From positions 1-64,000 of the forward strand of contig NZ_QRCT01000007.1 in assembly GCF_003363435.1 (NCBI RefSeq): a stretch of 64,000 nt of DNA, read 5' to 3'. This document shows, piece after piece, positions 9,552 to 23,550 of this stretch (position 1 is its first letter; each line of letters opens with the position of its first letter). The position numbers were made by a program, and so were the translations under genes. The notes beneath the pieces were generated by a model. That model did not search any database and was not told the origin of the DNA. It worked only from the letters and a program-made list of their open reading frames with translations. The stretch comes from Anaerosacchariphilus polymeriproducens (lineage in GTDB: Bacteria; Bacillota; Clostridia; Lachnospirales; Lachnospiraceae).

Positions 9552-9628
9552 TTTGTAATAATTACAAATTTGACAGGTATTAATTTGTAAAAACTAATAT
9601 AGAAAAGAAACAGATAAATTGATATAAT
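9550..9628 (+). promoter_or_regulatory. Operator and promoter module of the amino-acid transporter
   Basis: Palindrome TTGTAA-N3-TTACAA at 9553-9567 (arms extend further to 9550 and 9570), then GAC at offset 5, AATTTGT at offset 15 and TATAG at offset 31, and an extended -10 TGATATAAT at 9620-9628. The same elements at the same offsets occur at 13354-13430 before the catabolic operon. The spacing fits an activator site upstream of a promoter lacking a good -35 box. The PucR protein encoded nearby is the natural candidate ligand; this is inference. Confidence 0.6.
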
Positions 9629-9650
9629 TCGGGTTAAATCAATTTAGATG

Positions 9651-9694
9651 GCAAGGAGGTCATTCCTGGAGAATGACCTTCTTGCTATTTTTTT
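9651..9694 (+). terminator. Leader terminator or attenuator before transporter gene
   Basis: A 15-base stem (9651-9665 with 9671-9685, one G-T pair) followed by T7. It lies only about 20 bases after the predicted transcription start and about 130 bases before the transporter ATG, so it would cut the transporter transcript unless read through. It could instead end the kinase transcript. Confidence 0.7.
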
Positions 9695-9821
9695 ACTTTT
9701 AAAGGAGCTCCATAAGTAAAGCCTAAAGTGTTCTATAAGAAAGTGCGCACAAAATGAAGAACATATTAATTTGATTTTTTGTTATTTAATAATTGAGGAG
9801 GAAGATGGAAGGAGAAATTCT

Positions 9822-11333
9822 ATGACATTTAAAAACAATAAAAAGTTTTATTCAGTATGGATACTACTAATATTGGTGTTAGCTTTCTTAAATGGTTGCG
9901 GAAAAAAGGAAAAACAGACAGAGCATGAGATTAAAAGCGTTAAAGATCTGGCTGGTGCAGTTATTGGTGTTCAGTTAGGGACTACTGGTGATATTTATGC
10001 TTCCGATTATGAGAAAGAGGGTGCTGTCATTGAAAGATTTACAAAAGGAGCAGATGCGGCACAAGCTCTAAAACAAGGAAAAGTGGATTGTATTATTATT
10101 GATCAACAACCTGCAAAAGCAATTACAGATAAAAACAGTGAGTTATCTATTTTAGACGAGGAATTTAAAAAAGAAGAATATGCTATCTGTATATCGAAAG
10201 ATAAAAGTAAGTTAAAAAATCAGATAAATGAAGTCATTGCTCAGCTGAAAAAGGATAAGACATTAAATAATATCATTAATAATTATATAGGGGATTCTAC
10301 CATAGGAAAATTTCCCTATCAATCACCTAAAGATGTAGAGCGTAATAATGGAACTTTAACAATTGCTACAAACGCTGCATTTGAACCATATGAATATATG
10401 GAGGATGGTGAAATTGTAGGGATAGATATCGACATTGCACAAGCGATAGCTGACAGACTAGGAATGAATCTGATTGTACAGAATATGGAGTATGATTCAA
10501 TCATTGGAGCGGTACAAAGTGGAAAAGCAGATGTTGGTGTAGCAGGGATGTCGATAACTGAGGACCGCTTGCGTAGTATAGATTTTACAGAACCATATAC
10601 AACAGCAACGCAAGTTATTATTGTATGTAAAAGTGGAAATTTAGTAGAAACCAGTATTTTGGATAGTATAAAGCTAAATTTTCTGAAGGATAACCGATGG
10701 AAGTATTTGACTGATGGCTTGCTTATGACCTTGCAGATAAGTTTCTTTGCTGTAATTATCGGTATCGTACTTGGCTTTATCATTGCAGTGATAAGAACTG
10801 CTTGTGATATGACAGGAAAAGGGAAAATCCTGAATTTTGTTTGTAAAACCTACTTAACGATAATTCGAGGGACACCCGCTATGGTACAGCTTTTAATAAT
10901 ATATTATGTTATTTTTTCATCCGTAGATGTAAATAAGCTTTTTACGGCATCAATTGCTTTCGGTCTTAATTCATCTGCCTATATTGCTGAAATTGTACGT
11001 TCGGGTATTATGTCTGTTGATAAAGGTCAGTTTGAAGCTGGTAGGAGTATCGGATTTAACTATATACAGACTATGTGGAATTTTATTTTGCCACAGGCAT
11101 TTAAGAATATTCTTCCGGCATTAGGAAATGAGTTTATTGTTTTATTAAAGGAAACGGCAATTTCCGGCTATATAGGAATTATGGATCTGACCCGTGGCGG
11201 GGATTTTATAAGGAGCCGTACATATGATGCATTTTTACCATTAATTGCAGTTGCAATTATATATCTAATTATCGTGATGTTTTTGACACATATAGTTTCT
11301 TGTATTGAAAGGAGGCTTCGAATCGATGTTTAA
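9822..11333 (+). CDS. Amino-acid ABC transporter: lipoprotein binding domain fused to permease
   Basis: A 503-residue polar amino-acid transporter subunit. It starts with a lipoprotein signal (lipobox LNGC, Cys26). The substrate-binding part is in an unusual order: residues 38-156 match the second half of an SBP_bac_3 domain ([19 protein letters not shown] ... NNYIG), and residues 176-272 match the first half ([16 protein letters not shown] ... VIIVCKSG). The permease follows (about 296-503) with the EAA-type loop [20 protein letters not shown]. The binding domain therefore looks circularly permuted. The ATG at 9822 has AAGGAG eight bases upstream and gives a proper lipoprotein signal. The ATPase gene overlaps the 3' end by eight bases. 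The gene is preceded by the shared operator and leader hairpin. Confidence 0.9.
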
Positions 11334-12090
11334 TTCAGAAAATGTTTTGATTCAGGTTGATAATCTACAGAAAAATTTTAAAAATATAAAAGTTTTGAAT
11401 GGTATCACTACGCAAATAAAAAAGGGAGAAGTCCTAGTAATTTTAGGACCTTCGGGATGTGGAAAGTCAACGTTTTTACGCTGTTTAAATCTGTTAGAGG
11501 AACCGACTGTTGGCAGTATATTTTTCAATGGTGATGAAATAACCGATATCAATACCGATATCAATAAACATCGTCAAAAAATGATGATGGTATTTCAACA
11601 CTTTAATTTGTTTCCTCATTTGACCATATTAGAGAACTTAATTGCAGGTCCGGTAAAACTTTTAAAAAAGAGTAAAGAGGAAGCAAAAGCAAAAGGAATC
11701 GAATTGTTAAAAAGAGTCGGATTGGAGGATAAAGCTATGGCCTATCCGAATCAACTTTCAGGAGGGCAAAAACAACGAGTTGCAATTTGCCGTGCTCTGG
11801 CTATGGAGCCGGAAGTCATATTATTTGATGAACCTACTTCAGCACTAGATCCTGAAATGGTAGGAGAAGTTTTAGAAGTGATGAAATCCCTTGCGAATGA
11901 AGGGATGACTATGATATGTGTGACCCATGAAATGGGTTTTGCCAGAATGATAGCTAATCGAATTATATTTTTATATGAAGGAGTCGTTGCAGAGGAAGGA
12001 ACACCTGAGGAAGTATTCGACCGTCCTAAAAATGAAAATTTGAAGGCATTTTTATCGAAAACGTTGAACCCTATTTTGTGTAGGACATAA
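11326..12090 (+). CDS. Amino-acid ABC transporter ATPase
   Basis: A 254-residue polar-amino-acid ABC ATPase (GlnQ/HisP type) with Walker [11 protein letters not shown]-loop [10 protein letters not shown], signature [10 protein letters not shown], Walker [13 protein letters not shown] and H-loop CVTHEMGF. It energises the fusion permease encoded immediately upstream. AAAGGAGG lies ten bases before the ATG at 11326, which overlaps the permease gene. The gene converges on pucR, with only seven bases between the two stop codons. Confidence 0.95.
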
Positions 12091-12097
12091 AATTATT

Positions 12098-13267
12098 CTA
12101 GTTATACTCATAATTCGTATCATGAATTGCCTTAATCATAAAAGTTGAAACGACCTCAAACTCGAAATCATTTTTACATCCAAGAATAGACTTAATTTTT
12201 TGAATCCGATAACGTATTGTATTTGGATGCTGGAAAAGTATTTTTGCAGTCGTATCAATCTGATGATTTTGAGAGACATATTGTTCAAGCGTTTGAATGA
12301 GACATTTTCCATGTTTGTTGTCATAATTTTTTAGTTTTTTATATTTCAGCTGCAGGTAATGAAAAGCATATCGATTTTCTTTGAGCGGAAGAATGATATT
12401 ATATATTCCAATATCGCCATACTTATCATAGTTTACATTATCTTTAGAAGAGGCATGAATCGTATACAAACTTTGGCGTATTGAAATATCAGCCTTGTTT
12501 ATAGGAAGAACCTGTTCTGTTACTCCTATATTGAACTGTTCGCGAACCAGAGATAAATCACGAATGATCCAGTGCCAATTGTTGAGTACCGTATCACTAT
12601 CCATTGGTTCTTTATAGTGATAAAGAAAGAGTAAGCCATTTTTATACTTCATACAGAAAAATTGATTGGTATTTTGAAGCTGGGATTTGCGGTAGAGTAA
12701 ATTGTTAAAGTCACGTCCAAAAGTGATAGAATCTATTGTGTCTTTGTATTCTAAATACATAGATGTTATATAACTATTAAATTCCATATTAACGTCCTTT
12801 ATAAAGGATGTTATGGCTTCCGGAGCAGGATTTTCTTTTAACAGTTGATCTAGATTCTTCTCATAATAATCAAACTGCCTGGTAGAGCGTATGTAATCAC
12901 TTATATTTAAGATAAGGTCCTCCATATAGATAGAGTGAAACAAAAAGATAGGAACCTTTTTATTGTCGGCAAGTGCAATGATTTCTTTCGGTAATTCCGT
13001 ATAATATACACTTTTTACTGCAATGGCACAAACACCTATATCCATAAGGCGAGAAAATGAGGATTGAATCAAATTGGGATTGTCTTTGGCATAAAAAAGC
13101 GAAGTGAGTACAAAATCACCTTCATGAAAACCAGAATAATTATGTTCAAATTCCTCGTATTCTAATATAACTACATTGGAAATATTACGATTTAACCCGG
13201 ATTCACCTGCAATAATAGTGAATTTTGAAAAGAAATCAAATTGAAAAAGTGATGCTACATTAAACAT
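12098..13267 (-). CDS. PucR-family transcriptional regulator
   Basis: A 389-residue PucR/CdaR-type regulator: N-terminal PucR domain (about 1-125, with the typical EGDFVLTS motif), a middle GGDEF-like linker region, and a C-terminal HTH_30 helix-turn-helix with the hallmark TAKILFQHPNTIRYRIQKI. Members activate catabolic operons, such as purine catabolism in Bacillus. Here it lies between a transporter and a divergently transcribed amino-acid catabolic operon, both preceded by the same palindrome, so it is the best candidate for their activator. The ATG has AGGAGGT five bases upstream. The inducer is unknown. Confidence 0.9.
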   Translation of the reverse strand: MFNVASLFQFDFFSKFTIIAGESGLNRNISNVVILEYEEFEHNYSGFHEGDFVLTSLFYAKDNPNLIQSSFSRLMDIGVCAIAVKSVYYTELPKEIIALADNKKVPIFLFHSIYMEDLILNISDYIRSTRQFDYYEKNLDQLLKENPAPEAITSFIKDVNMEFNSYITSMYLEYKDTIDSITFGRDFNNLLYRKSQLQNTNQFFCMKYKNGLLFLYHYKEPMDSDTVLNNWHWIIRDLSLVREQFNIGVTEQVLPINKADISIRQSLYTIHASSKDNVNYDKYGDIGIYNIILPLKENRYAFHYLQLKYKKLKNYDNKHGKCLIQTLEQYVSQNHQIDTTAKILFQHPNTIRYRIQKIKSILGCKNDFEFEVVSTFMIKAIHDTNYEYN

Positions 13268-13353
13268 AAAAAGACCTCCTAAATAATGTTATATTATATA
13301 AGATAAGGTTTTTAAATTCAACAAAAAGTTAGTTTATTCATAATTAATTAATA

Positions 13354-13430
13354 TTGTAAAAGTTACAAAGAGGACGGGGGTAAATTTGTTTCAGGTGCTA
13401 TAGTAAAGACAAAGATTTATCTGCTATTAT
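13354..13430 (+). promoter_or_regulatory. Operator and promoter module of the catabolic operon
   Basis: TTGTAA-N3-TTACAA at 13354-13368, GAC at offset 5, AATTTGT at 13383-13389, TATAG at 13399 and extended -10 boxes TGCTATAGT (13396-13404) and TGCTATTAT (13422-13430). It aligns without gaps to the transporter module for 46 bases after the palindrome (29 identities). There is no clear -35 box, which suggests activator dependence. It lies between divergent pucR and the M20 hydrolase gene. Confidence 0.6.
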
Positions 13431-13446
13431 ATTTTTATTAAGGCGA

Positions 13447-13482
13447 AGGTGCTTTTCATAGAAGACTATGAAAGGTGCTTTT
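13447..13482 (+). terminator. Leader hairpin before catabolic operon
   Basis: CTTTTCATAG pairs with CTATGAAAGG around an AAGA loop, followed by GTGC and a T6 run; an AAGGTGCTTTT direct repeat flanks it. It is a weaker terminator than the one at 9651 but occupies the same position relative to the promoter module. The T run ends about 40 bases before the ATG of the first gene. Confidence 0.45.
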
Positions 13483-13516
13483 TTAGTTTATATCATACAG
13501 GAAGAAGGAGGAAGTT

Positions 13517-15148
13517 ATGTATCAGGAAATGTTACAGTTGACAAAAGAGTTAGTTGGGATTCCCAGCGTAAATACAACTCCCGGTGAAAAAAAGATTGGA
13601 CAATTTATTGAAAACTATATTCGGGATATTCCTTATTTTAAAGAACACTCTGAACAGGTAATTGTTCAACCTTTGAAAGAAGATCCGCTGGAAAGGAGAA
13701 ATGTATTTGCGTTACTAATTGGGGAAAAGGAAAAGAAAGCAGATACGATTTTTTTTCATGGCCACACAGATACGGTTGGTATAGAAGATTATGCTTCGTT
13801 AGAAGCGTATGCATGTGATGTTGATGAACTTATGGAAAAACTCAAAGAGATTAAGCTGCCAATAGATGTTAAAGAAGATTTAGAATCGGGAGATTATATA
13901 TTTGGAAGAGGGGCCTTAGATATGAAAAGCGGAGATGCGGTATTTCTCACCTTACTGAAAGAATTTAGCCAAAAAGTAAATGAGTTATCCGGTAATATAT
14001 TGGTCTCTTTTAACCCAGTTGAGGAAAACCTTCATACCGGTATTTTAGAGGGAATACTTATTTTACATGAATTAAAAGAGAAATATGGATTAGTATATAA
14101 GCTTGCAATTAATAACGATTATATATGTCCATTGTATCCTGGGGACACCAAAAAATACGTTTATACAGGCGCGGTAGGAAAACTACTCCCATGTTTTTAT
14201 ATTCAAGGAAAAGAGACTCATGTGGGACAGTGTTTTGAAGGGTTTGATGCGGCAGCAGTTGCGGCAAAATTAGTAGAGAAGATTAATCTCAATACCGACT
14301 TTTGTGATGAGTTTAAAGGTGAATATACCCTACCTCCGGCAGTGCTGAAGATGAAAGATTTAAAAGAGTGGTATAATGTGCAGACCCCTAATGATGCGTT
14401 TGTTTATTTTAATTATTTTGTACATAATGCATCTATGGAATGCACAATCGATAAATTAAAAACCGCTGCCGCAGAAGTATTTGATGAAGTTCTGCAAATG
14501 TTACATAACAGATATAAAGATTACTGCAGATTGACAGGTCAAAAATATGAAAAACAGGATTATCAAACAGAGGTATTGACTTATCAGGAGTTACTAAGTC
14601 TGGTACAAAAGAATATGGGCTCTGAAGAATTAGAGAAGATTTTAAAAACTATGGCAGAAAAAGCCTTAAAAGATGGAATGGACAAAAGAGAAATTCCGAT
14701 ACCTTTGGTTCGCTTTCTTTTAAATCAGGCTAAGATAATGAATCCCGTAATTGTTCTTTTTTTTGCAGCACCTTTTTGTCCACATAATACGTTGCAAGAT
14801 AAAGAGGAGGAAATAGTCTCTGCTTTAAGAAATATCACAAAGAGGGTTGGCGAAAAATTCGAGGAATCTTATCAATTACAACGGTTTTTTCCAAGTCTTA
14901 CAGATAGCAGTTACCTTAAGATTGATGATGATGAAGAAGCAATTGAATTACTATGCAGGAACTTTCCTGAACAAAAGTTATTATACCCATTGCCGTTTCA
15001 TGAGATCAAATCGTTAAATATACCGGCTGTAAACTTTGGGGGCTATGGAAAGGATGCGCATAAGTGGTCAGAAAGAGTAAATATATCTTATACATTTCAA
15101 GTTCTTCCAGAACTGATAAAAGAAACTGTTGACTTTTATTTATCATAA
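13517..15148 (+). CDS. RocB-like M20 family metallo-hydrolase
   Basis: A 543-residue member of the M20 zinc hydrolases, closest in layout to the arginine-utilisation protein RocB. The metal-binding motifs are HGHTDTVG (about residue 81) and RGALDMKSGD, with the EE pair in NPVEENLH. It is longer than typical M20 peptidases, as RocB proteins are. It should act in the cytoplasm, hydrolysing an amide or peptide-type bond; the substrate of RocB itself is not established. AAGGAGGAAG precedes the ATG. First gene of a tightly spaced six-gene operon, 15 bases before the next gene. Confidence 0.85.
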   Translation: MYQEMLQLTKELVGIPSVNTTPGEKKIGQFIENYIRDIPYFKEHSEQVIVQPLKEDPLERRNVFALLIGEKEKKADTIFFHGHTDTVGIEDYASLEAYACDVDELMEKLKEIKLPIDVKEDLESGDYIFGRGALDMKSGDAVFLTLLKEFSQKVNELSGNILVSFNPVEENLHTGILEGILILHELKEKYGLVYKLAINNDYICPLYPGDTKKYVYTGAVGKLLPCFYIQGKETHVGQCFEGFDAAAVAAKLVEKINLNTDFCDEFKGEYTLPPAVLKMKDLKEWYNVQTPNDAFVYFNYFVHNASMECTIDKLKTAAAEVFDEVLQMLHNRYKDYCRLTGQKYEKQDYQTEVLTYQELLSLVQKNMGSEELEKILKTMAEKALKDGMDKREIPIPLVRFLLNQAKIMNPVIVLFFAAPFCPHNTLQDKEEEIVSALRNITKRVGEKFEESYQLQRFFPSLTDSSYLKIDDDEEAIELLCRNFPEQKLLYPLPFHEIKSLNIPAVNFGGYGKDAHKWSERVNISYTFQVLPELIKETVDFYLS

Positions 15149-15163
15149 CAAGGAGATTTAAAA

Positions 15164-16000
15164 ATGTTTGTTAGAAACGGAACGGCAAGGTTAAAAAGGG
15201 TTTTATTATCAAAACCGGAATACTTAAAACCTGCGCCAATTAATGAAATAGCGAAAAAATGGAAAAGCAGCGTATTAGACAGTGAGAAAATGTTAAGAGA
15301 ACATGAGGCATTAGTTAATGCCTACAAACAGGCAGGGGTAGAGATAGAATTTTTAGAAGCAGATCCCAAACGTCCAAATTCTGTATTTGCAAGAGACTTT
15401 GGAGGATGTGTGAAAGAAGGTTATATTTTAGGAAGATTTAAGCTTCCGATAAGAGAACTGGAACAGATTGATTATAAAAATAAGATGAAAATGCTTGAAA
15501 TACCAATGATTGCGCAAGTAAAGGAAGGTTGTTTTGAAGGGGGAGACTTTGCGTTTCTGAATGAAAAAACAATTGCTATTGGAATGGCTGACAGAAGCAA
15601 TGAGAGAGGAGTAGAAGAGATACAGAAACAGTTGTTACCTTATGGATATGATGTAATTCCAGTACCATTAAAGTCGGAGTATCTGCATTTGGACATGTGC
15701 TTTAATTTGGTTGATGACCATTTGGCTGTTGCATATAAAGAAGGCTTACCGGAATACTTTCAGAAGTATTTGAGGAAAATGGATATTAAGTTAGTCTGCG
15801 TTCCAGAAGAAACAATATTTTATCATAGTTGTAACCTGCAAAGTCTAGGCTGCCACAGAGTATTATCGTTAAAACATAATGAAGTCGTGAATGAAGCATT
15901 ATCCAAAGAGGGAATGGAAGTGATTCCGCTGGATATTACTGAAATTTTGAAAGCAGGAGGCGGGCCTCACTGTATGACTTTTCCATTATGGCGAGAATAG
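15164..16000 (+). CDS. Arginine deiminase / DDAH superfamily enzyme
   Basis: A 278-residue amidinotransferase-fold enzyme of dimethylarginine dimethylaminohydrolase size. The catalytic set is visible: Asp in SVFARDFG, acidic EGGD (125-128), His175 in YLHLD and nucleophilic Cys270 in GGGPHC near the C-terminus. It should hydrolyse a guanidino group (arginine, methylarginine or related) to a ureido group plus an amine. No ornithine carbamoyltransferase or carbamate kinase lies nearby, so this is not a standard arginine deiminase pathway. AAGGAG precedes the ATG. Second gene of the operon; its neighbours suggest that the product feeds transamination. Confidence 0.87.
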   Translation: MFVRNGTARLKRVLLSKPEYLKPAPINEIAKKWKSSVLDSEKMLREHEALVNAYKQAGVEIEFLEADPKRPNSVFARDFGGCVKEGYILGRFKLPIRELEQIDYKNKMKMLEIPMIAQVKEGCFEGGDFAFLNEKTIAIGMADRSNERGVEEIQKQLLPYGYDVIPVPLKSEYLHLDMCFNLVDDHLAVAYKEGLPEYFQKYLRKMDIKLVCVPEETIFYHSCNLQSLGCHRVLSLKHNEVVNEALSKEGMEVIPLDITEILKAGGGPHCMTFPLWRE

Positions 16001-16013
16001 AGGAGGTGATTTT

Positions 16014-17090
16014 ATGAGTAGTTATTTTTTGTGTGACGAATATAATGAAATGGAGCCATATGTTCCAGGTGAGCAGCCTAATGATAGGGAATATATAAAA
16101 CTAAATGCGAATGAATCTTCGTTCAAACCATCTGCAAAAGTACTTGAAGCAATATCAAATCAAGAAATTAATGGAATGAGTCATTATTCGGATCCTCATT
16201 GCATGGTATTAAGAGAAGCAATTGCAAAGGTATACAAGGTCAATACGGATCAGGTCTTTGTTGGGAACGGAGCAGATGAAGTCTTAGGTTTTCTGTTTTT
16301 GAGCTTTTTTAAGCCAGGAATGAAAGTATGTTTTCCTGATATTACCTACGATTTTTACAGAACATATGCAAAAACATATCGATTAGATATGCTTCAGATT
16401 CCATTAAAGGAAGACTTCACCATAGATGTTGATGATTATATTAAATCTGATCGGGATGTTATCCTTGCAAATCCTAATAACCCTACAGGAATAAGACTTT
16501 CAGTTGAAGAGATCGAACGTATCGTGGCAGCAAATAAGAAACGAATGGTAATTGTTGATGAGGCATATGTAGATTATGGTAATGAATCATGTGTATGTTT
16601 AGTTGATAAATATCCAAATCTTGTGGTTGTTCAGACTTTTTCTAAGTCCCGGAATATGGCTGGAGCAAGAATTGGTTATGCGATATCATCTAAGGATATT
16701 ATTGAAGATTTGAATAATATTAAATTTACTTTTAATCCTTATAATTTAAGTTCCCTGGCATTGGCGGCGGGAACTGCAGCTATCCAGGATACCGATTATC
16801 TTATCAAATGTATTCAGGAAGTTATTAAAAATAGGGAATATTTAGAAAAAGAATTGATTGAACTGGGATTTCAGTCAATTAATACACATACAAATTTTGT
16901 ATTTGTTACGCATCCATACATTTATGCTGGTTTGTTAGAAAAGGAATTAAAAAAAAGAGGAATATTAGTAAGACATTATTCTCAAGAACGAATTGATAAT
17001 TATTTAAGAATTACAATTGGTACAAAAGAAGAAATGGTGAAAGTAGTGAATGCGTTAACTGAAATTTTAAAATTTTTTAAAAAATCTTAG
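16014..17090 (+). CDS. HisC-like class I/II aminotransferase
   Basis: A 358-residue PLP enzyme of the histidinol-phosphate aminotransferase family. Visible landmarks are NANESSF near the N-terminus, NPNNPTG at about 153-159, DEAYVDY at about 182-188 and the PLP lysine Lys211 in TFSKSRNMAGARIGYA. There are no histidine biosynthesis genes here, so it more likely removes an alpha-amino group from an imported amino acid or its hydrolysis product, giving a 2-oxo acid for the 2-hydroxyacid dehydrogenase encoded 11 bases downstream. GAGGAGGTGA precedes the ATG. Substrate specificity cannot be read from sequence. Confidence 0.87.
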   Translation: MSSYFLCDEYNEMEPYVPGEQPNDREYIKLNANESSFKPSAKVLEAISNQEINGMSHYSDPHCMVLREAIAKVYKVNTDQVFVGNGADEVLGFLFLSFFKPGMKVCFPDITYDFYRTYAKTYRLDMLQIPLKEDFTIDVDDYIKSDRDVILANPNNPTGIRLSVEEIERIVAANKKRMVIVDEAYVDYGNESCVCLVDKYPNLVVVQTFSKSRNMAGARIGYAISSKDIIEDLNNIKFTFNPYNLSSLALAAGTAAIQDTDYLIKCIQEVIKNREYLEKELIELGFQSINTHTNFVFVTHPYIYAGLLEKELKKRGILVRHYSQERIDNYLRITIGTKEEMVKVVNALTEILKFFKKS

Positions 17091-17101
17091 AGGAGAGAAA
17101 A

Positions 17102-18076
17102 ATGAGAAAAATTGTAATTAGTGATACCCCGGAAGTAATGGAGAATGATTATAAAGTAATGTACCAAGCTATTTTAAATATTATACCGGATGCGGAAATT
17201 AAGTTGTATCCATATGAAGATGAAGAAGGATTAGTAAATGCACTAGAAAATGCAGAAGGTCTTCTTACTACCTTCCTTCCTATTAACCGAAAATTATTAC
17301 ATCAGACAAAGAGTCTGAAATGTGTATCGATTAGTGCGGCAGGTTATCAAAATGTAAATTTAGAAGATGCAAAGGAATTTGGAGTCGCAATTTGTCATAT
17401 TGCTGAATATTGTACGGATGAGGTAGCAGAACACACTTTGGCCTTTATGCTGGGATTAAACCGAAATCTGAAGTATTACGGCAATCGAATTGAGAAGGAT
17501 CATATATGGAGATATCATGAAATTGATGGAGGCAGACCATTAAAAGAGCAAACGCTTGCAATTTTTGGATTTGGTAAGATTGGGCAGGCGGTGGCAGTTC
17601 GAGCTAAAGCTTTTGGCATGAAAGTAATCGCCGTGGATCCATATTTATCAAAAGAAATTGCACAAAATCTTGATGTAATGTTAGTTGATAAAGAGCAGGC
17701 ATTAAGAGAAGCTGATATTATTTCAAATCATATGAATCTGACAGAAGAGAACTATCATTATTTCAATTTAGAAGCATTTGAAAAAATGAGAAAACATCCG
17801 TTTTTTATTAATGTAGGACGGGGAGGAAGTGTGAACGAAGCCGATTTGATAGAAGCTTTAGACAGAGAACTGATTAAAGGAGCAGGATTAGATGTATTGG
17901 AAGAGGAAGAACCGGTTCTAAAAGGACACCCAATCTTAAATCGGGATAATGTACTAATAACACCACATAGTGCATTTTACTCCGACACATCCTTCGAAAA
18001 ACATCGAAGAATCAGTGGTGAAAACTTAGCTTATTATTTAACTGGCAACAAGGAAAAAGTATTTGAACTAGTTTAG
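17102..18076 (+). CDS. D-isomer specific 2-hydroxyacid dehydrogenase
   Basis: A 324-residue NAD-dependent dehydrogenase. The Rossmann motif is GFGKIGQAV, the NAD-binding second part has INVGRGGSVNEADLI, and the catalytic His is in TPHSAF. It should interconvert a 2-oxo acid and a 2-hydroxy acid, and with the aminotransferase encoded just upstream it makes an amino acid to 2-hydroxyacid route of the kind used in reductive amino-acid fermentation. AGAGGAGAG precedes the ATG. Phosphoglycerate dehydrogenase is an alternative family label but there is no serine pathway context. Confidence 0.87.
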   Translation: MRKIVISDTPEVMENDYKVMYQAILNIIPDAEIKLYPYEDEEGLVNALENAEGLLTTFLPINRKLLHQTKSLKCVSISAAGYQNVNLEDAKEFGVAICHIAEYCTDEVAEHTLAFMLGLNRNLKYYGNRIEKDHIWRYHEIDGGRPLKEQTLAIFGFGKIGQAVAVRAKAFGMKVIAVDPYLSKEIAQNLDVMLVDKEQALREADIISNHMNLTEENYHYFNLEAFEKMRKHPFFINVGRGGSVNEADLIEALDRELIKGAGLDVLEEEEPVLKGHPILNRDNVLITPHSAFYSDTSFEKHRRISGENLAYYLTGNKEKVFELV

Positions 18077-18114
18077 TAGCTTATGAATTAAGAGAAAGAA
18101 TTGAGGAAGATCAC

Positions 18115-19281
18115 ATGAAAAGAATAGTTCTGAGTGGAAAGGCAATTGTAATAGGTCCGGATTCCCTAAAATACTTAAGACAGGTGGAGTGCAGGCACGC
18201 ATTTATTGTAACAGGCGGAAGTTCCATGGAAAAATCCGGTGTTATCAGAAGGGTTAAAAGATATCTTAAAGAATCTAATAGTAAAGTAACGGTATACTCG
18301 GGAATCAAAAAAAATCCGACCATTGATGAAGTAATGGAAGGGGTTGAATGTATGAAAAGAGAAACCCCGGATCTTGTATTGGCTATTGGCGGCGGTTCAG
18401 CAATGGATGCTGCCAAGGCAATGCTTTTATTTTATGAGTTTCCTGAATTAAATTTTGATAATGTTTTGTCACGGATACAAAAAGGATTAATTCCTAAAAA
18501 TCGGAAAACAGAATTAATCTGTGTGGCTACAACCTCTGGAACTGCTTCAGAAGTAACAAGAGGTACCGTGATAACAGATGCCAAAAAGGAGTTAAAGGTT
18601 CCAATCATGACAGATTGTTTAAGACCTGATATAGCAATTTTAGATCCGGTGCTTACAATGACTATGCCGTTTCATATCGCTGCGGAGACCGGAATGGACG
18701 CATTAACACATGCAATAGAGGCATATACCAATCACAATTTAGATGATTTTAATGAGGGGTTGTGCCGGGCAGCGATTGAAGGATTGATGCAATGGCTGCC
18801 GATATCTTGTACGGATGCAACACTGGAAAGCAGAGAAAAGGTACATAATTATCAGGCTATGGCTGGAATAGGTTTTGCTAATGTTGGACTTGGCATGGTG
18901 CATGGAATCGCACATTCTTACGGTGCTATATTTAATCTGGGACATGGTTTAGCGAATGCCATTATATTACCGTATGTTTTAGAATATAACAGAAGAAATA
19001 ATTTAGTTGCAGAGAAATTAGAAAACTTGTCTTACCATTGTAAATGTAATGATATTGTAGATAGTATAAGAAAGATGCGAGAAGAGCTTCAGATTCCAAA
19101 CTGTTTTTATGATGCGGGATTATCGGAAGAAGAGTATCTATCAAAATTTGATAAACTTGTAGAACATTCCATGTTGGGAGCCACGAAAGTAAATCCTGTA
19201 GAAGTGGACATAGAGGTAATGAAAGAAATGGTCGCACTTACCTATTACGGTAAGCCAGTAAATGATAAGGGAGTGGTTTGA
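18115..19281 (+). CDS. Iron-containing alcohol dehydrogenase
   Basis: A 388-residue group III alcohol dehydrogenase. It has the GGGSAMDAAK nucleotide motif, TTSGTASEVT, and the metal ligands Asp and His in DALTHAIEAY plus two His in MVHGIAHSYG and NLGHGLANA. Enzymes of this group reduce aldehydes or semialdehydes, including 4-hydroxybutyrate dehydrogenases. Its stop overlaps the start of the class III aminotransferase, which typically makes a semialdehyde, so the pair likely converts an omega-amino acid to an omega-hydroxy acid. TTGAGGAAG precedes the ATG. Confidence 0.88.
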   Translation: MKRIVLSGKAIVIGPDSLKYLRQVECRHAFIVTGGSSMEKSGVIRRVKRYLKESNSKVTVYSGIKKNPTIDEVMEGVECMKRETPDLVLAIGGGSAMDAAKAMLLFYEFPELNFDNVLSRIQKGLIPKNRKTELICVATTSGTASEVTRGTVITDAKKELKVPIMTDCLRPDIAILDPVLTMTMPFHIAAETGMDALTHAIEAYTNHNLDDFNEGLCRAAIEGLMQWLPISCTDATLESREKVHNYQAMAGIGFANVGLGMVHGIAHSYGAIFNLGHGLANAIILPYVLEYNRRNNLVAEKLENLSYHCKCNDIVDSIRKMREELQIPNCFYDAGLSEEEYLSKFDKLVEHSMLGATKVNPVEVDIEVMKEMVALTYYGKPVNDKGVV

Positions 19282-20558
19282 TGAAATCTATGTATGAGAG
19301 GGCAACAAAAGTAATGCCTCCTGTTGCGAACAGGGCTACAACGCTTGGAGTCATTAATTCTGAAGATTATTACTTATATACAGAGGATGGCAGAAAGATA
19401 TTGGATTTTGCCAGTGGTGTAGCAGTTAACAATTTGGGGAATAAGAATAAAAAAGTAGTGGAAGCAGTGAAAGAGCAGCTCAACACGATGATTCATGTTG
19501 GACATAATGTTGTATATTATGAATCTTATGTAGCTTTGGCAGAAAAGCTTGTTGAATTAACGGGCGGAGATACCATGGTATATTTCAGTAATTCCGGAGC
19601 AGAAGTGAATGAAGGTGCGTTGAAGTTAGCTAAATACATAACAGGGCGTCCAGGAATTATTTCCTTTAAAAATTCTTTTCATGGAAGGACAATAGGCTGT
19701 TGTTCCATAACAGGTTCCAGTTCCGCCTATCGGAAATATTATGAACCATTGATGCCGGGCGTTTATTGGGCAGATTATGCGAACTGCTATCGATGTCCAT
19801 TTGGAAAAGAGAAATGTCATTGTAATATGGAATGTTTAAAACAGTTTGATAGTATCTTCCATAAATTAATTGATCCGGCTTGTATTGCTGCAATGATCGT
19901 GGAACCGGTACAGGGAGAAGGGGGATATATTGTACCACCAAAAGAGTTTTTGCAAGGGTTAAGAAGGATTTGCGATAAACATGGTATACTTTTAATTTAT
20001 GATGAAATCCAGACGGGTATTGGCAGGACAGGAGAACTGTTTGCTTATCAGACGTTTGATGTAAAGCCAGACATTCTTACCTCTGCGAAAGCATTAAGCG
20101 GGGGAATTCCATTAGCAGCTTTAATTGCAAAGAAAGAATTTATGAGGAAGTGGCCTGCCGGTGCGCATGGTGGAACCTTTGGCGGAAATCCGCTTGCCTG
20201 TGCAGCAGCGTTGAAGACATTAGAAATTATTGAAGAAGAAAATCTATTAGATAATTGTAAGACTATGGGAAAATATCTCATGGAAAGCTTATATTCTTTA
20301 CAAGAAAAGTACACAGATATCATTGGGGAAGTACGGGGAATCGGCTTGATGTGTGGGATTGAATTTGTAGATGAACAAGGAAATCCCGATGGAGAACTAG
20401 CAAGTTATATAAAAAAGAAGGCATTAGAAGAAGGTCTTCTGCTACTGACCTGTGGAAGTGATCATAATGTAGTCCGTTTTATAGCACCATTAACAGTGAC
20501 AGAGAAAGAAATTGATCAGGCGGTGTTGATTATTGATAAGGTTATAGCTGAAAAATAA
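19281..20558 (+). CDS. Class III aminotransferase (GABA/ornithine type)
   Basis: A 425-residue PLP aminotransferase of the 4-aminobutyrate / ornithine / acetylornithine group. It has NSGAEVNEGALKLA, the Cys-rich NCYRCPFGKEKCHC segment found in several class III enzymes, the cofactor Asp in YDEIQTGIGRTG and the PLP lysine in TSAKALSGG. It likely takes a terminal amino group, producing a semialdehyde for the Fe-dehydrogenase encoded immediately upstream. The ATG at 19281 overlaps the preceding stop (TGATG) and has AAGGGAG six bases upstream. Last gene of the operon; no clear terminator follows. Confidence 0.9.
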   Translation: MKSMYERATKVMPPVANRATTLGVINSEDYYLYTEDGRKILDFASGVAVNNLGNKNKKVVEAVKEQLNTMIHVGHNVVYYESYVALAEKLVELTGGDTMVYFSNSGAEVNEGALKLAKYITGRPGIISFKNSFHGRTIGCCSITGSSSAYRKYYEPLMPGVYWADYANCYRCPFGKEKCHCNMECLKQFDSIFHKLIDPACIAAMIVEPVQGEGGYIVPPKEFLQGLRRICDKHGILLIYDEIQTGIGRTGELFAYQTFDVKPDILTSAKALSGGIPLAALIAKKEFMRKWPAGAHGGTFGGNPLACAAALKTLEIIEEENLLDNCKTMGKYLMESLYSLQEKYTDIIGEVRGIGLMCGIEFVDEQGNPDGELASYIKKKALEEGLLLLTCGSDHNVVRFIAPLTVTEKEIDQAVLIIDKVIAEK

Positions 20559-20583
20559 TGAAAGACGATAGTTTTACTTAGTC

Positions 20584-20611
20584 TTGACATACGAACAAAT
20601 ATTATGATAAT
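20584..20611 (+). promoter_or_regulatory. Promoter of DUF6506 gene
   Basis: Perfect TTGACA (20584-20589), 16-base spacer and GATAAT (20606-20611). It implies a leader of about 120 bases before the ATG at 20742. Confidence 0.55.
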
Positions 20612-20741
20612 GTGTGTAGAAATACATAAAAAATCATAAATAAGAACGGACAAGCAATCATATTTATTGTTTTTAATGTACCTTAAATAATCATATTTAA
20701 ATTTTGTCATAGTGACATTGAATTGAAAGGAAGGAATAAAT

Positions 20742-21044
20742 ATGAAACTTAAAGCAGCGTTTATGTTTATAGCTCCAGAAGCTAATCCCAAGAACCACAA
20801 AACAGTAGTAGATACCCCAAACGTATCATTAACTGTAGTAGGCGTTGATAATTATCAAGAAGCTGAAAAAGTAGCAATTGAATTAGCTGAGGAAGGCATT
20901 ACCGCAATAGAACTTTGTGCTGGATTCGGAATAGAAGGTACTGCAATAGTAAATAGAGCAGTAAAAGGGAAGGCAGTCATAGGTGCTGTTAGATTTGATA
21001 ATCATCCAGGTTTCAACTATAAAAGTGGAGATGAATTATTCTAA
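20742..21044 (+). CDS. DUF6506-type small protein
   Basis: A 100-residue cytoplasmic protein resembling the DUF6506 family, with conserved-looking segments FMFIAPEANP, GVDNYQEAE, GITAIELCAGFG and GAVRFDNHPG. The family has no assigned biochemical role as far as I know. It may form an alpha/beta sandwich with a conserved Cys-Gly motif. AAAGGAAGG precedes the ATG. It has its own promoter and terminator and lies between the amino-acid catabolic operon and the aconitase-like gene, which suggests but does not prove a metabolic link. Confidence 0.75.
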   Translation: MKLKAAFMFIAPEANPKNHKTVVDTPNVSLTVVGVDNYQEAEKVAIELAEEGITAIELCAGFGIEGTAIVNRAVKGKAVIGAVRFDNHPGFNYKSGDELF

Positions 21045-21082
21045 TACCTTATTAAAACTTATTAAGTTCTTAGTAATTTATA

Positions 21083-21137
21083 AAAGAGTGTTACTCATAA
21101 CTAATTTTTAGTTATGGGGCGATGCTCTTTTTCTTTA
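21083..21137 (+). terminator. Intrinsic terminator after DUF6506 gene
   Basis: AAAGAG (21083-21088) pairs with CTCTTT (21125-21130), with an inner CATAACT/AGTTATG stem and a T-rich tail. Confidence 0.7.
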
Positions 21138-21199
21138 TAAAAAATCATTTTTCCGCTGAGTCTTATGAAATCATAATGTACTGTTCTTTTTCGCCTTTA

Positions 21200-21229
21200 C
21201 TTGCAATATAGCGGATGTGCAAGTATAAT
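21200..21229 (+). promoter_or_regulatory. Promoter with embedded inverted repeat before hydratase gene
   Basis: TTGCAA (21201-21206), 17-base spacer, perfect TATAAT (21224-21229). An inverted repeat CTTGCA (21200-21205) and TGCAAG (21218-21223) spans the -35 box and abuts the -10 box. A repressor bound here would block the promoter. Confidence 0.6.
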
Positions 21230-21267
21230 ATAAAATTGATAATGAAAAAAACTAAGGAGGCCAATCA

Positions 21268-23550
21268 ATGAAATTATACCAAAGCGGTGCATATTTAATC
21301 AATGGTACCGAAATAATTCCAGATAGTCAAGATACACGGGCAGTTTTGCAAAGTAAGACAGGCAGTGCGCCAGCCCAAGAAGAGGCAGCTAAGAATACAA
21401 TTGCTTATCGTATTTTAGAGGACCATAATACTTCCGGTAATATGGAGAAACTAAAAATTAAATTTGATAAATTAACTTCACATGACATTACTTTTGTAGG
21501 AATCATACAAACAGCAAGAGCTTCCGGTTTGGAAAAATTCCCTGTTCCGTATGTTCTGACTAATTGTCATAATAGTTTGTGTGCAGTAGGCGGAACGATT
21601 AATGAGGATGATCATATGTATGGTCTGACTTGTGCAAAAAAATATGGCGGTGTCTATGTGCCTCCGCATCAAGCAGTCATTCACCAATATGCAAGGGAAA
21701 TGCTTGCCGGTGGTGGAAAAATGATTTTGGGCTCGGATAGTCATACCCGATATGGAGCCCTTGGAACCATGGCGATGGGTGAAGGTGGTCCCGAGTTAGT
21801 GAAACAGATATTATCTCAGACATATGATATTAATATGCCGAAGGTGGTAGGCGTTTATTTGACGGGAACACCAATGAAAGGTGTAGGGCCACAAGACGTT
21901 GCTCTTGCTATAATTGGAGAAGTTTTTGCAAATGGTTATGTAAATAATAAAGTTATGGAATTTGTTGGCCCTGGTGTTGCGAATTTAAGTGTTGATTTCC
22001 GTATCGGAGTTGACGTTATGACGACAGAGACCACATGTCTTTCCTCAATCTGGAAAACAGATGAAAAAGTGAAAGAATTTTATGAGATTCATGGAAGAGT
22101 AGAGGAATACGAAGAATTGAATCCTGGACAAGTTGCATATTATGATGGAATGATTGAGATTGATTTAAGCGAAATCAAACCAATGATTGCAATGCCATTC
22201 CATCCAAGTAATACGTATACGATTGAGGAACTTAATGCTAATCTGTTAGATATTTTGGATGAATGTGAAAAACGTGCTCTTACAAGTCTTGGAGATTCCG
22301 TAGAATTCTCATTAAAAGATAAAGTGAAGAATGGAAAACTATATGTAGATCAAGGTATTATTGCAGGATGTGCAGGTGGTGGATTTGAAAATATAGCGGC
22401 AGCAGCAGATATATTGAGAGGCGCAAGTATTGGACCCGACGAATTTACATTAAGTGTATATCCGGCAAGTACGCCAATCTACATGGAGTTAGTACGGGAT
22501 GGAGCGATTGCTGATTTGATGGCAACCGGTTCCGTTGTAAAGACTGCTTTCTGTGGACCATGTTTTGGTGCAGGTGATACTCCTTCCAATAATGCGTTCA
22601 GTATCCGTCATACGACAAGGAACTTTCCAAATCGTGAAGGATCTAAGTTACAAAATGGACAGATTTCTTCTGTTGCACTGATGGATGCACGTTCAATTGC
22701 TGCAACAGCTGCGAATAAAGGATATTTGACAGCAGCAACTGACATAGATGTTGAATATACGAACCCGAAATATTTCTTTGATAAAACAATATATCAAAAC
22801 CGTATTTATGACAGCAAAGGGGCAGCAGATGCTTCTGTTGATATTAAGTTTGGTCCGAACATTAAAGACTGGCCGGAAATGTCTCCTCTAGGAGATAATA
22901 TGGTATTAAAAGTAGTTTCCGAAATTCATGATCCTGTTACCACGACAGATGAATTGATTCCTTCTGGTGAAACATCTTCTTATCGTTCCAATCCACTTGG
23001 TCTTGCTGAGTTTACATTATCTCGTAGAGATCCGGCTTATGTAGGACGTGCCAAAGAAGTGCAATTAGCTGAAAAGGCTAGAGTTGCAGGAGAAAATCCA
23101 GGAGAAGCTTTTGAAGAAATTGTTCCTGTGATTGAAAAAATTAAAAAGCATAATTCAGAGATTACAAGTGAAAATATGTGTATAGGAAGTACCATTTTTG
23201 CTGTAAAACCAGGAGATGGTTCTGCGCGTGAACAGGCTGCATCTTGCCAAAAAGTACTTGGCGGCTGGGCAAACATCGCAAATGAATATGCAACAAAACG
23301 TTACCGTTCCAATCTAATCAACTGGGGTATGCTTCCATTTCTTATTGAAAAGGGAGAACTACCATTTAAGAATTCGGATTATATTTTTATTCCTGGAATA
23401 AGAAAAGCTGTTGAAAAGAAAGAGTCCGAACTAAAAGCTTATGTTGTAGGAGATACAATGAAAGAATTTACATTGAAGCTGGGTGAATTGACGGATGACG
23501 AAAGAGAAATTATATTAAGAGGATGCTTGATTAATTTTAATAAAAAATAA
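21268..23550 (+). CDS. Aconitase-family hydratase (YbhJ-like)
   Basis: A 760-residue aconitase-superfamily enzyme. Three likely [4Fe-4S] cysteines are seen, one in CAGGGFENI and two in [10 protein letters not shown]; the GSDSHTRYG motif binds substrate in the N-terminal part, and the C-terminal swivel-type domain follows. The cluster motifs differ from true aconitase (which has GSCTNS), placing it in the poorly characterised hydratase branch. It probably adds or removes water on a hydroxy di- or tricarboxylic acid, but the substrate is unknown. AAGGAGG precedes the ATG. Transcribed alone from its own promoter, with its own terminator; no citrate-cycle genes are near. Confidence 0.85.

Follow-up and report, generated by a model that had tools for sequence, protein, structure and literature searches.

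A conserved operon of Anaerosacchariphilus polymeriproducens that may scavenge nitrogen from arginine through 2-hydroxy acids

In the arginine deiminase (ADI, ArcABC) pathway, ornithine carbamoyltransferase (OTC) and carbamate kinase take off the carbamoyl group by phosphorolysis, and in the arginine transaminase (ATA) pathway of Pseudomonas 2-oxoarginine is decarboxylated. The roc arginine catabolism of Bacillus is a further point of reference, as we liken an M20 gene to RocB and take class III aminotransferases to belong to the RocD superfamily. Here we describe a six-gene operon in positions 1 to 64,000 of contig NZ_QRCT01000007.1 of Anaerosacchariphilus polymeriproducens (assembly GCF_003363435.1), a stretch of 64,000 nucleotides called the window below. 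We see about an even chance that this operon serves nitrogen scavenging from arginine, or from a guanidino amino acid close to it, through a series of hydrolyses and deaminations via 2-hydroxy intermediates. What is new in it is likely the gene combination and the hydroxy-acid route, not a protein family.

An earlier note on the window had placed a possible guanidino or amino-acid fermentation operon at 12098-20558. As listed below, the six enzyme genes it proposed were all found as intact open reading frames (ORFs) in the same direction, with families assigned; they are separated by gaps of 15, 13, 11 and 38 bp, and the final pair overlaps by 4 bp. The range held for the six enzymes (13517-20558), but its first ORF, on the minus strand, encodes a PucR-type regulator, and the ATP-binding cassette (ABC) transporter at 9771-12090 lies outside it.

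13517-15148, + strand: M20 metallo-hydrolase, RocB type; proposed ureido hydrolase (5-ureido to 5-amino + CO2 + NH3); PF01546, predicted structure, OTC in relatives without M20.
15164-16000, + strand: short ADI-fold guanidino deiminase, predicted (278 aa); PF19420, PF02274, motifs, predicted structure.
16014-17090, + strand: HisC-like class I/II aminotransferase; proposed alpha-aminotransferase; family models, tree.
17102-18076, + strand: D-2-hydroxyacid dehydrogenase; proposed reductase of the 2-oxo acid; PF02826 178.8 bits, PF00389 62.0 bits.
18115-19281, + strand: Fe-containing alcohol dehydrogenase (Fe-ADH); proposed reductase of the 5-aldehyde; PF00465, PF25137; aldehyde dehydrogenase (ALDH) or aldehyde:ferredoxin oxidoreductase (AFOR) beside the same aminotransferase in relatives.
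19278-20558, + strand: class III aminotransferase (AT3); proposed omega-aminotransferase; PF00202; PRK08117 603.4 bits, cut-off 574.

The deiminase has the fold shared by ADI and dimethylarginine dimethylaminohydrolase (DDAH), with PF19420 (134.4 bits) and PF02274 (93.6 bits) both above cut-off. Its predicted structure was confident (pLDDT 93.4) and matched ArgZ 6juz (Z 32.4, root-mean-square deviation (rmsd) 2.1, 262 aligned, 22% identity) and ADI 4bof (Z 32.0, rmsd 2.1, 272 aligned) equally well. The motif set that marks an ADI goes beyond two aspartates, and here FxRD (D78), EGGD (125-128), HLD (H175, D177) and C270 were invariant in 36 deiminase sequences and aligned with 4bof, giving the catalytic and guanidine-binding motifs of an ADI. 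R97 and R144 were likewise invariant and both aligned with arginines of DDAH-1 (2c6z); their counterparts in known structures presumably bind the substrate carboxylate. The available part of PMC9007349 states that guanidino-acting members keep two aspartates (FTRD, HLD), where a putative citrullinase has asparagines. Because both guanidine-binding aspartates are kept, the short enzyme should be a guanidino deiminase leaving a ureido product. The earlier assignment to a guanidino amino acid operon is supported. The alpha substituent of its substrate (amine, ketone or hydroxyl) and the chain length are not readable from sequence.

The ArcA equivalog TIGR01078 gave 81.2 bits against a cut-off of 489.1. 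Three named relatives were tried for this enzyme and rejected. The DDAH models NF045659, NF045660 and NF045658 gave 83.1, 65.4 and 48.1 bits (cut-offs 300, 340 and 450), and the enzyme has N72, R77 and HLD where the aligned DDAHs have Asp, Glu and HLK. An ArgZ-type dihydrolase was rejected since D78 is invariant in the 36 sequences and ArgZ has Asn (FTAN), with NF052232 at 48.7 bits against 450; N71 of ArgZ is the Asn at the FxR(D/N) position. The putative citrullinase CtlX has FPNN and HTN where FxRD and HLD stand here. Separately, a short deiminase (43% identical) was seen on an Enterococcus mundtii plasmid typed as conjugative (L194:8989-9843), with a PucR-type regulator, OTC and a YfcC transporter.

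A single scan of genome contigs, with the ADI-fold protein as query, found 55 loci at 42 to 73% identity, hosted by Lachnospiraceae, other Clostridia, Selenomonadales/Veillonellaceae, an Erysipelotrichaceae and Lactobacillaceae. Nineteen of the 55 have less than 6 kb on one side, and the 36 with at least 6 kb on each side are called well-flanked; neighbours were scored by tblastn with thresholds set by us and a limit of 8 kb, and some absences may be due to divergence or distance. The earlier note had staked its proposal on the genes occurring together in other genomes, and this was borne out, as an M20 gene lay no more than 8 kb from the deiminase in 36 of 36 well-flanked loci and in 48 of 55 overall. 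Among the well-flanked loci, a HisC-like aminotransferase of either lineage was present in 31, homologues of the ABC binding protein/permease in 30 and of the ATPase in 29, a D-2-hydroxyacid dehydrogenase in 23, PF03547-type carriers, possibly for export, in 13, and a PucR-type regulator homologue in 12. AT3 was found in 15 of the 36 (16 of 55 overall) and a clear Fe-ADH in 2 of 55; the Fe-ADH/omega-aminotransferase half is a recurrent but uncommon accessory.

The association was also seen in whole genomes. Among 200 genomes of the family, an ADI fold (E 1e-20) was found in six and M20 (E 1e-30) in nine, and all six were within the nine (hypergeometric 1e-9). Three of the six (G031, G069 and G082) have an ADI-fold protein that shares only about 29 to 30% identity with that of the host; its gene lies within about 6 kb of M20, together with ABC transporter genes, FTRD or FARD and HLD are kept, and two of these genomes have Fe-ADH and AT3 at 59 to 75% identity. 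In a phylum sample of 398 genomes, M20 (E 1e-40) was present in 64 and the ADI fold (E 1e-15) in 27, with 16 shared by an eye count (hypergeometric 1e-7). Three of these 16 pairs lie within about 3 kb and 13 are far apart or on different contigs, and in two of the close pairs (G225, G246) the distant ADI fold has no HLD by pattern match. Because most pairs are unlinked and two close pairs are without HLD, the phylum sample supports association at the genome level only.

The M20 hydrolase matched PF01546 (34.0 bits, cut-off 24.6), and H83, D85, D135, E169, E170, D201 and H515, which we presume to form its two-metal site, were invariant in 30 sequences. Its predicted structure (pLDDT 94.5) was closest to DapE 5vo3, a deacylase (Z 28.7, rmsd 3.6, 372 aligned), and a PDB sequence search gave no match at E 0.01. 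Annotated plasmid records label its relatives 'M20/M25/M40 family metallo-hydrolase', and the name RocB is our presumption. Three loci with a deiminase homologue and no visible M20 (L169, 36% identical; L194, 43%; L168, 49%) keep FARD or NTRD and HLD, and all have OTC beside the deiminase (384, 348 and 395 bits, respectively; cut-off 280.85). Carbamate kinase is also present in L168 (422 bits) and L169 (415 bits; cut-off 358.25), the genomes of which (G227 and G220) gave no M20 match at 1e-40, and the gap of L194 where the kinase might be expected contains no ORF of at least 60 aa wholly inside. Because OTC, with carbamate kinase in two cases, is present where M20 is missing, we propose that M20 is a ureido hydrolase, an enzyme that plausibly hydrolyses the carbamoyl/ureido group. 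No assigned reaction for RocB-type M20 enzymes was found among the titles and starts of abstracts listed. A distant M20/RocB-type gene (24% identical) was also seen beside a protein with ArgZ-like C-terminal domains (L096:7473-8585 and L096:8591-10351).

At the alpha end, the alpha-aminotransferase named in the earlier note is indeed a class I/II aminotransferase, but it passes the curated HisC model TIGR01141 (308.6 bits, cut-off 276.55), and automatic annotation would therefore call it HisC. Histidine could be made without the operon copy, since a second gene of the host genome passes the HisC cut-off (294.1 bits) and HisD is encoded elsewhere. Two far-apart HisC-like lineages occupy the same slot in clostridia and lactobacilli. 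In a tree of 26 rows, a chosen part of groups c5 and c9, the lactobacillar copies (c9) formed one starred group distant from the rest; c5 was not a clade, and the host's own second HisC fell inside it on a long branch. Hydroxy acids as intermediates were supported by L169, because this locus has a LarA-type 2-hydroxyacid racemase (PF09861 159.7 bits, cut-off 23.3; best equivalog 277.9, below 500) together with an Ldh_2 dehydrogenase (PF02615 457 bits, cut-off 38.8).

At the omega end, ALDH or Fe-ADH above thresholds was found in 15 loci with AT3 and in none without it among the 55. Fe-ADH was seen in the window, in L040 and L050, and in the family genomes G031, G069 and G104, and 13 lactobacillar loci carry a succinate-semialdehyde-dehydrogenase-like ALDH in its place. 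Without the deiminase, M20 and AT3 stand beside AFOR-type genes in L156 and L157 (genomes G560 and G310; AT3 58 and 60%); the AFOR assignment comes from Pfam for G560 and is below the NCBIfam cut-off for both. These arrangements suggest that AT3 makes an aldehyde from the M20 product, because three unrelated aldehyde enzymes (Fe-ADH, ALDH and AFOR) stand beside it. The pairing of genes for amino-to-hydroxy conversion, as the earlier note had it, is supported. AT3 was sought in the whole genomes of 17 loci. Fourteen of these loci are without it, among them L056 and L014, where little else of the cluster is visible. Three of the 14 (G598, G601 and G608) gave no match at 1e-60, nine had nothing closer than matches of 33 to 46%, perhaps to enzymes of the acetylornithine type, and G597 (60%) and G610 (57%) have a close AT3 elsewhere in the genome. 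Core-only organisms would stop at 5-amino-2-hydroxyvalerate.

Two further arrangements were noticed around these genes. A cytidylate-kinase-like gene lies inside two Fe-ADH-type clusters (L091:12163-12798, PF13189; L092:8440-9117, by eye). L094:1160-9202 has no deiminase; there AT3, M20 and Fe-ADH have as neighbours an amidohydrolase, an APH-type kinase and a further class III aminotransferase, and this omega module possibly acts on another ureido or amide substrate.

The operon is flanked by the following features.

9771-11333, + strand: amino-acid ABC transporter, permuted substrate-binding domain fused to permease; NCBIfam matches in permuted order, order compared with relatives.
11305-12090, + strand: ABC transporter ATPase, GlnQ/TcyN type; NCBIfam; homologues near the deiminase in relatives.
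12098-13267, - strand: PucR-type transcriptional regulator, divergent from the operon; PF07905 63.5 bits, PF13556 48.7 bits.
13354-13368, no strand: palindrome TTGTAA-N3-TTACAA, possible operator; read by eye, no statistical test.
13440-13482, + strand: leader attenuator; mini-hairpin with hexaloop 13440-13455, terminator 13445-13482.
20742-21044, downstream of the operon: DUF6506 gene; not recovered as a cluster member in relatives.
21268-23550, downstream of the operon: aconitase-family hydratase; not recovered as a cluster member in relatives.

The 249-base gap upstream of the operon contains a terminator-like hairpin, the 5' arm of which holds the 3' arm of a hexaloop mini-hairpin; because these bases are shared, the two are mutually exclusive. 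The 55 loci and window positions 9001-21500 (954,958 bases) were scanned for the hairpin pair, both hairpins being required. Counted by eye, 16 of the 22 matches immediately precede a cluster's first enzyme or transporter gene, and two more (L029, L061) its PucR-type gene. Two-sided changes keep the pairing in both hairpins, with covariation scores of 0.772 for the terminator (0.275 shuffled) and 0.550 for the mini-hairpin (0.185 shuffled); all 10 rows of the alignment (A4) are scan hits selected for both hairpins, and the pairing scores, not the placement, come partly from this selection. In the hexaloop, the hairpin and G4 are present in 10 of 10 rows, which were chosen for them, and A1 in 8 of 10, with G in the window and L064. 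A covariance model gave 32 of 57 rows at E up to 0.0083 after removal of three opposite-strand echoes, and 22 of the 32 lie directly before a cluster gene, 13 of these 22 being training rows or near-copies. Outside this placement count, a match in L091 (6077-6116) lies directly before the M20 match (from about 6155). With the same model, a second leader copy was found before the M20 gene in L016 (8316-8366), L018, L019, L023, L062 and L066; these six Pseudobutyrivibrio/Butyrivibrio operons have two attenuators, one before the transporter and the other before M20.

In the host genome (G000; 3.81 Mb, 50 contigs), the covariance model matched six places at E up to 5 besides the operon itself, which is a training row. 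The nif operon contains two of the six, one lying between nifK and nifE (E 0.0012) and the other ahead of nifH (E 3.4), with a binomial chance of 8e-5 for a span chosen afterwards. This nif operon is on contig C34 (L193:4364-16983), with nifH, nifK and nifE above curated cut-offs and mod-like genes (by eye), and because of these genes the host is probably a diazotroph. The available part of PMC3369931 describes ANTAR targets as two such hairpins, mostly before nitrogen genes including nitrogenase. The canonical ANTAR dual hairpin was rejected here as its first hairpin is missing, and because of this we call the leader ANTAR-P2-like, not an ANTAR target. An Rfam riboswitch was rejected as well, since nothing in 9500-21300 matched at E up to 1. 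Shuffled sequences fold as well as the leader taken as a whole (z -0.88). Half-sites of the palindrome (TTGTAA/TTACAA) recur in the leaders of L020, L064 and L044, as judged by eye with no statistical test. Both the PucR-type regulator and the leader that the operon has in common with nif suggest a role in nitrogen acquisition or control.

As a separate observation, the ABC substrate-binding domain at 9771-11333 is circularly permuted, with the C-terminal half first, the N-terminal half next and the permease last in a single protein. The same permutation was seen in L013:7675-8478 and L064:10899-11459, two of 18 relatives matching both halves; in the remaining 16 the halves stand in their usual order.

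Gene content, conservation, catalytic motifs, gene replacements and the conserved leader are read directly from the DNA, and on this basis we propose the following order of steps. The ABC transporter would import arginine, which the HisC-like aminotransferase would convert to 2-oxoarginine and the hydroxyacid dehydrogenase to 2-hydroxyarginine (argininate). The short deiminase would then yield 2-hydroxy-5-ureidovalerate and NH3, and the M20 enzyme would turn the former into 5-amino-2-hydroxyvalerate, CO2 and NH3. AT3 would make the 5-aldehyde, and Fe-ADH would reduce it to 2,5-dihydroxyvalerate, which would be excreted. With glutamate recycled, the net reaction would be Arg + 4 H2O -> 2,5-dihydroxyvalerate + CO2 + 4 NH3. 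For the core version of many relatives (deiminase, M20, alpha-aminotransferase and hydroxyacid dehydrogenase) it would be Arg + 3 H2O -> 5-amino-2-hydroxyvalerate + CO2 + 3 NH3. Both equations are balanced for C, H, N and O with no oxidant needed, and the first has no ATP step. In chemical terms, if the alpha-amine is taken off while the delta-nitrogen is still bound, the keto and aldehyde forms are kept from closing into a ring. We infer all substrates and products, the step order, the excreted product and the nitrogen control; the deiminase assignment and the coupling of M20 to it are firmer than the step order and the products.

Several points weigh against this proposal. No family model names a step, the step order rests on chemical reasoning, and the proposed alpha-aminotransferase scores as HisC. 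The hydroxyacid dehydrogenase was not within 8 kb in 13 of the 36 well-flanked loci, although two of these (L055, L057) do carry one too diverged for the threshold. At the levels used, no ADI-fold match accompanies the M20 gene in 3 of the 9 genomes with it in the family and in 48 of the 64 in the phylum sample. A weak Fe-ADH homologue (33%, 96 bits, opposite strand), below threshold, occurs without AT3 in L043. One of the two nif leader matches is weak (E 3.4), and the upstream first hexaloop hairpin (P1, A1 and G4) was found in 2 of 16 leaders with 3.5 expected from shuffles, a set that excludes L029 and five further scan hits. Finally, a classical deiminase route in trans is possible. The earlier note had reported no carbamoyltransferase or carbamate kinase, which holds for the families of the six-gene operon but not for the genome, where OTC (442.8 bits, above cut-off) and a carbamate-kinase-like gene (326.7 bits, below the cut-off of 358.25) are encoded elsewhere; no further ADI-family gene was found in the host genome at the sensitivity used.

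The same enzymes could instead work from the guanidine end first, the deiminase making citrulline and M20 ornithine, after which both ends would be processed (glutamate semialdehyde reduced, the alpha-amine removed) to the same or similar products via amino acids. The OTC genes beside the deiminase in L168, L169 and L194, above the ornithine carbamoyltransferase cut-off, would suit citrulline and ornithine, and the available part of PMC4569260 reports that M. tuberculosis requires Rv2323c to grow with arginine as its nitrogen source, with carbon reaching proline. Rv2323c is probably the protein behind the deiminase's best NCBIfam match (DiMArgaseDdahMtb). We nevertheless find this order rather unlikely. 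Most loci without AT3 retain the alpha-end pair, and in the 14 of 17 genomes without AT3 in the locus this enzyme gave no match at 1e-60 (three), only distant ones (nine, 33-46%) or a close one elsewhere (two, 57 and 60%). By general chemistry the keto and aldehyde forms of free ornithine would be lost to ring closure, and the LarA-type racemase and Ldh_2 of L169 suit hydroxy acids. Another guanidino substrate, such as homoarginine, canavanine, methylarginines or free 2-hydroxyarginine, is a good deal less probable: sequence fixes neither chain length nor alpha substituent, and L169 is without an alpha-aminotransferase among its ORFs seen, but DDAH-type residues are not kept (N72, R77 and HLD against Asp, Glu and HLK) and the OTC-type partners suit a five-carbon backbone.

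Least probable of those weighed is an energy-yielding or electron-disposing arginine fermentation, in which alanine or some other amino acid would take up the nitrogen and the two reductases would consume NADH. The operon does have two reductase-type dehydrogenases, its hosts are largely Lachnospiraceae, Selenomonadales and Lactobacillaceae, which are fermentative groups, and NADH would be consumed if the amino groups went to pyruvate and left the cell as alanine. However, an ATP-forming enzyme is missing from the operon, and in our proposal the carbamoyl group is removed by hydrolysis and not by phosphorolysis. Lactobacilli carry an aldehyde dehydrogenase instead of the reductase, and the leader is common to the operon and nif. 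We prefer nitrogen mining over fermentation because it would be redox-neutral, with no net NADH under glutamate dehydrogenase recycling. The NADH disposal at both ends claimed by the earlier note is not supported, as each pair would be redox-neutral if the amino groups returned in this way; its observation of the operon was confirmed and its interpretation partly supported.

Returning to nitrogen scavenging, a fuller version of it can be put forward tentatively, at somewhat less than even confidence. It would be an undescribed redox-neutral arginine pathway wholly via 2-hydroxy intermediates, in which the alpha-hydroxyl, made first, guards against ring closure, so that the deiminase, M20 and omega-aminotransferase could strip all four nitrogens. 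Carbon would leave as 2,5-dihydroxyvalerate (with Fe-ADH), 2-hydroxyglutarate (with ALDH or AFOR) or 5-amino-2-hydroxyvalerate (core). The pathway would be induced under nitrogen limitation by the attenuator shared with nif, and would make or consume gut 2-oxoarginine and argininate. In the available parts of the reports, these two compounds were measured in cat faeces and dog serum (PMC7407581, PMC10376357), and argininic acid is among the uremic retention solutes (PMC8745165), the enzyme tables of which give general arginine enzymes for it, e.g. arginine-pyruvate transaminase and arginine-tRNA ligase. Among the titles and starts of abstracts listed, no dedicated bacterial enzyme set for argininate or 2-oxoarginine was found, nor, with few subscription journals covered, a description of the cluster or of the proposed end products in bacteria.

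Arginine is very nitrogen-rich, and the host may be affected when gut bacteria degrade it. If the proposal is true, the operon would give a source for some unexplained gut metabolites, and the cluster, which occurs in many bacteria of the gut and of fermentations, provides candidate genes in cultured members of Pseudobutyrivibrio, Butyrivibrio, Roseburia and Liquorilactobacillus and in Ligilactobacillus ruminis. RocB-type M20 enzymes gain a candidate function, and the HisC label that the aminotransferase will receive calls for caution. Through the leader shared with nif, the use of arginine would be linked to nitrogen limitation in a host that is probably a diazotroph.

Compared with the described systems, the operon shares parts with each. 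As in the ADI pathway, a protein of the same fold and motif set would deiminate the guanidine, and three homologues stand with OTC and two with carbamate kinase; the operon enzyme, however, is short (278 aa against the 408-position ArcA model), M20 takes the place of OTC and carbamate kinase, so that no ATP would be formed, and alpha-end enzymes are added. The ArgZ/AgrE arginine dihydrolase is among the closest solved folds (6juz, tied with ADI 4bof), but has Asn where the operon deiminase family has D78. The putative citrullinase CtlX, according to the available part of PMC9007349, has the PF02274 fold and arginine-family substrates, whereas the citrullinase-like step of the operon is assigned to the unrelated M20 enzyme. 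Unlike Bacillus roc, the operon has neither an arginase nor a pyrroline-carboxylate dehydrogenase among its families. Like the ATA pathway, its route would begin with alpha-amine removal to 2-oxoarginine, but it has a hydroxyacid dehydrogenase, and no decarboxylase is among its families.

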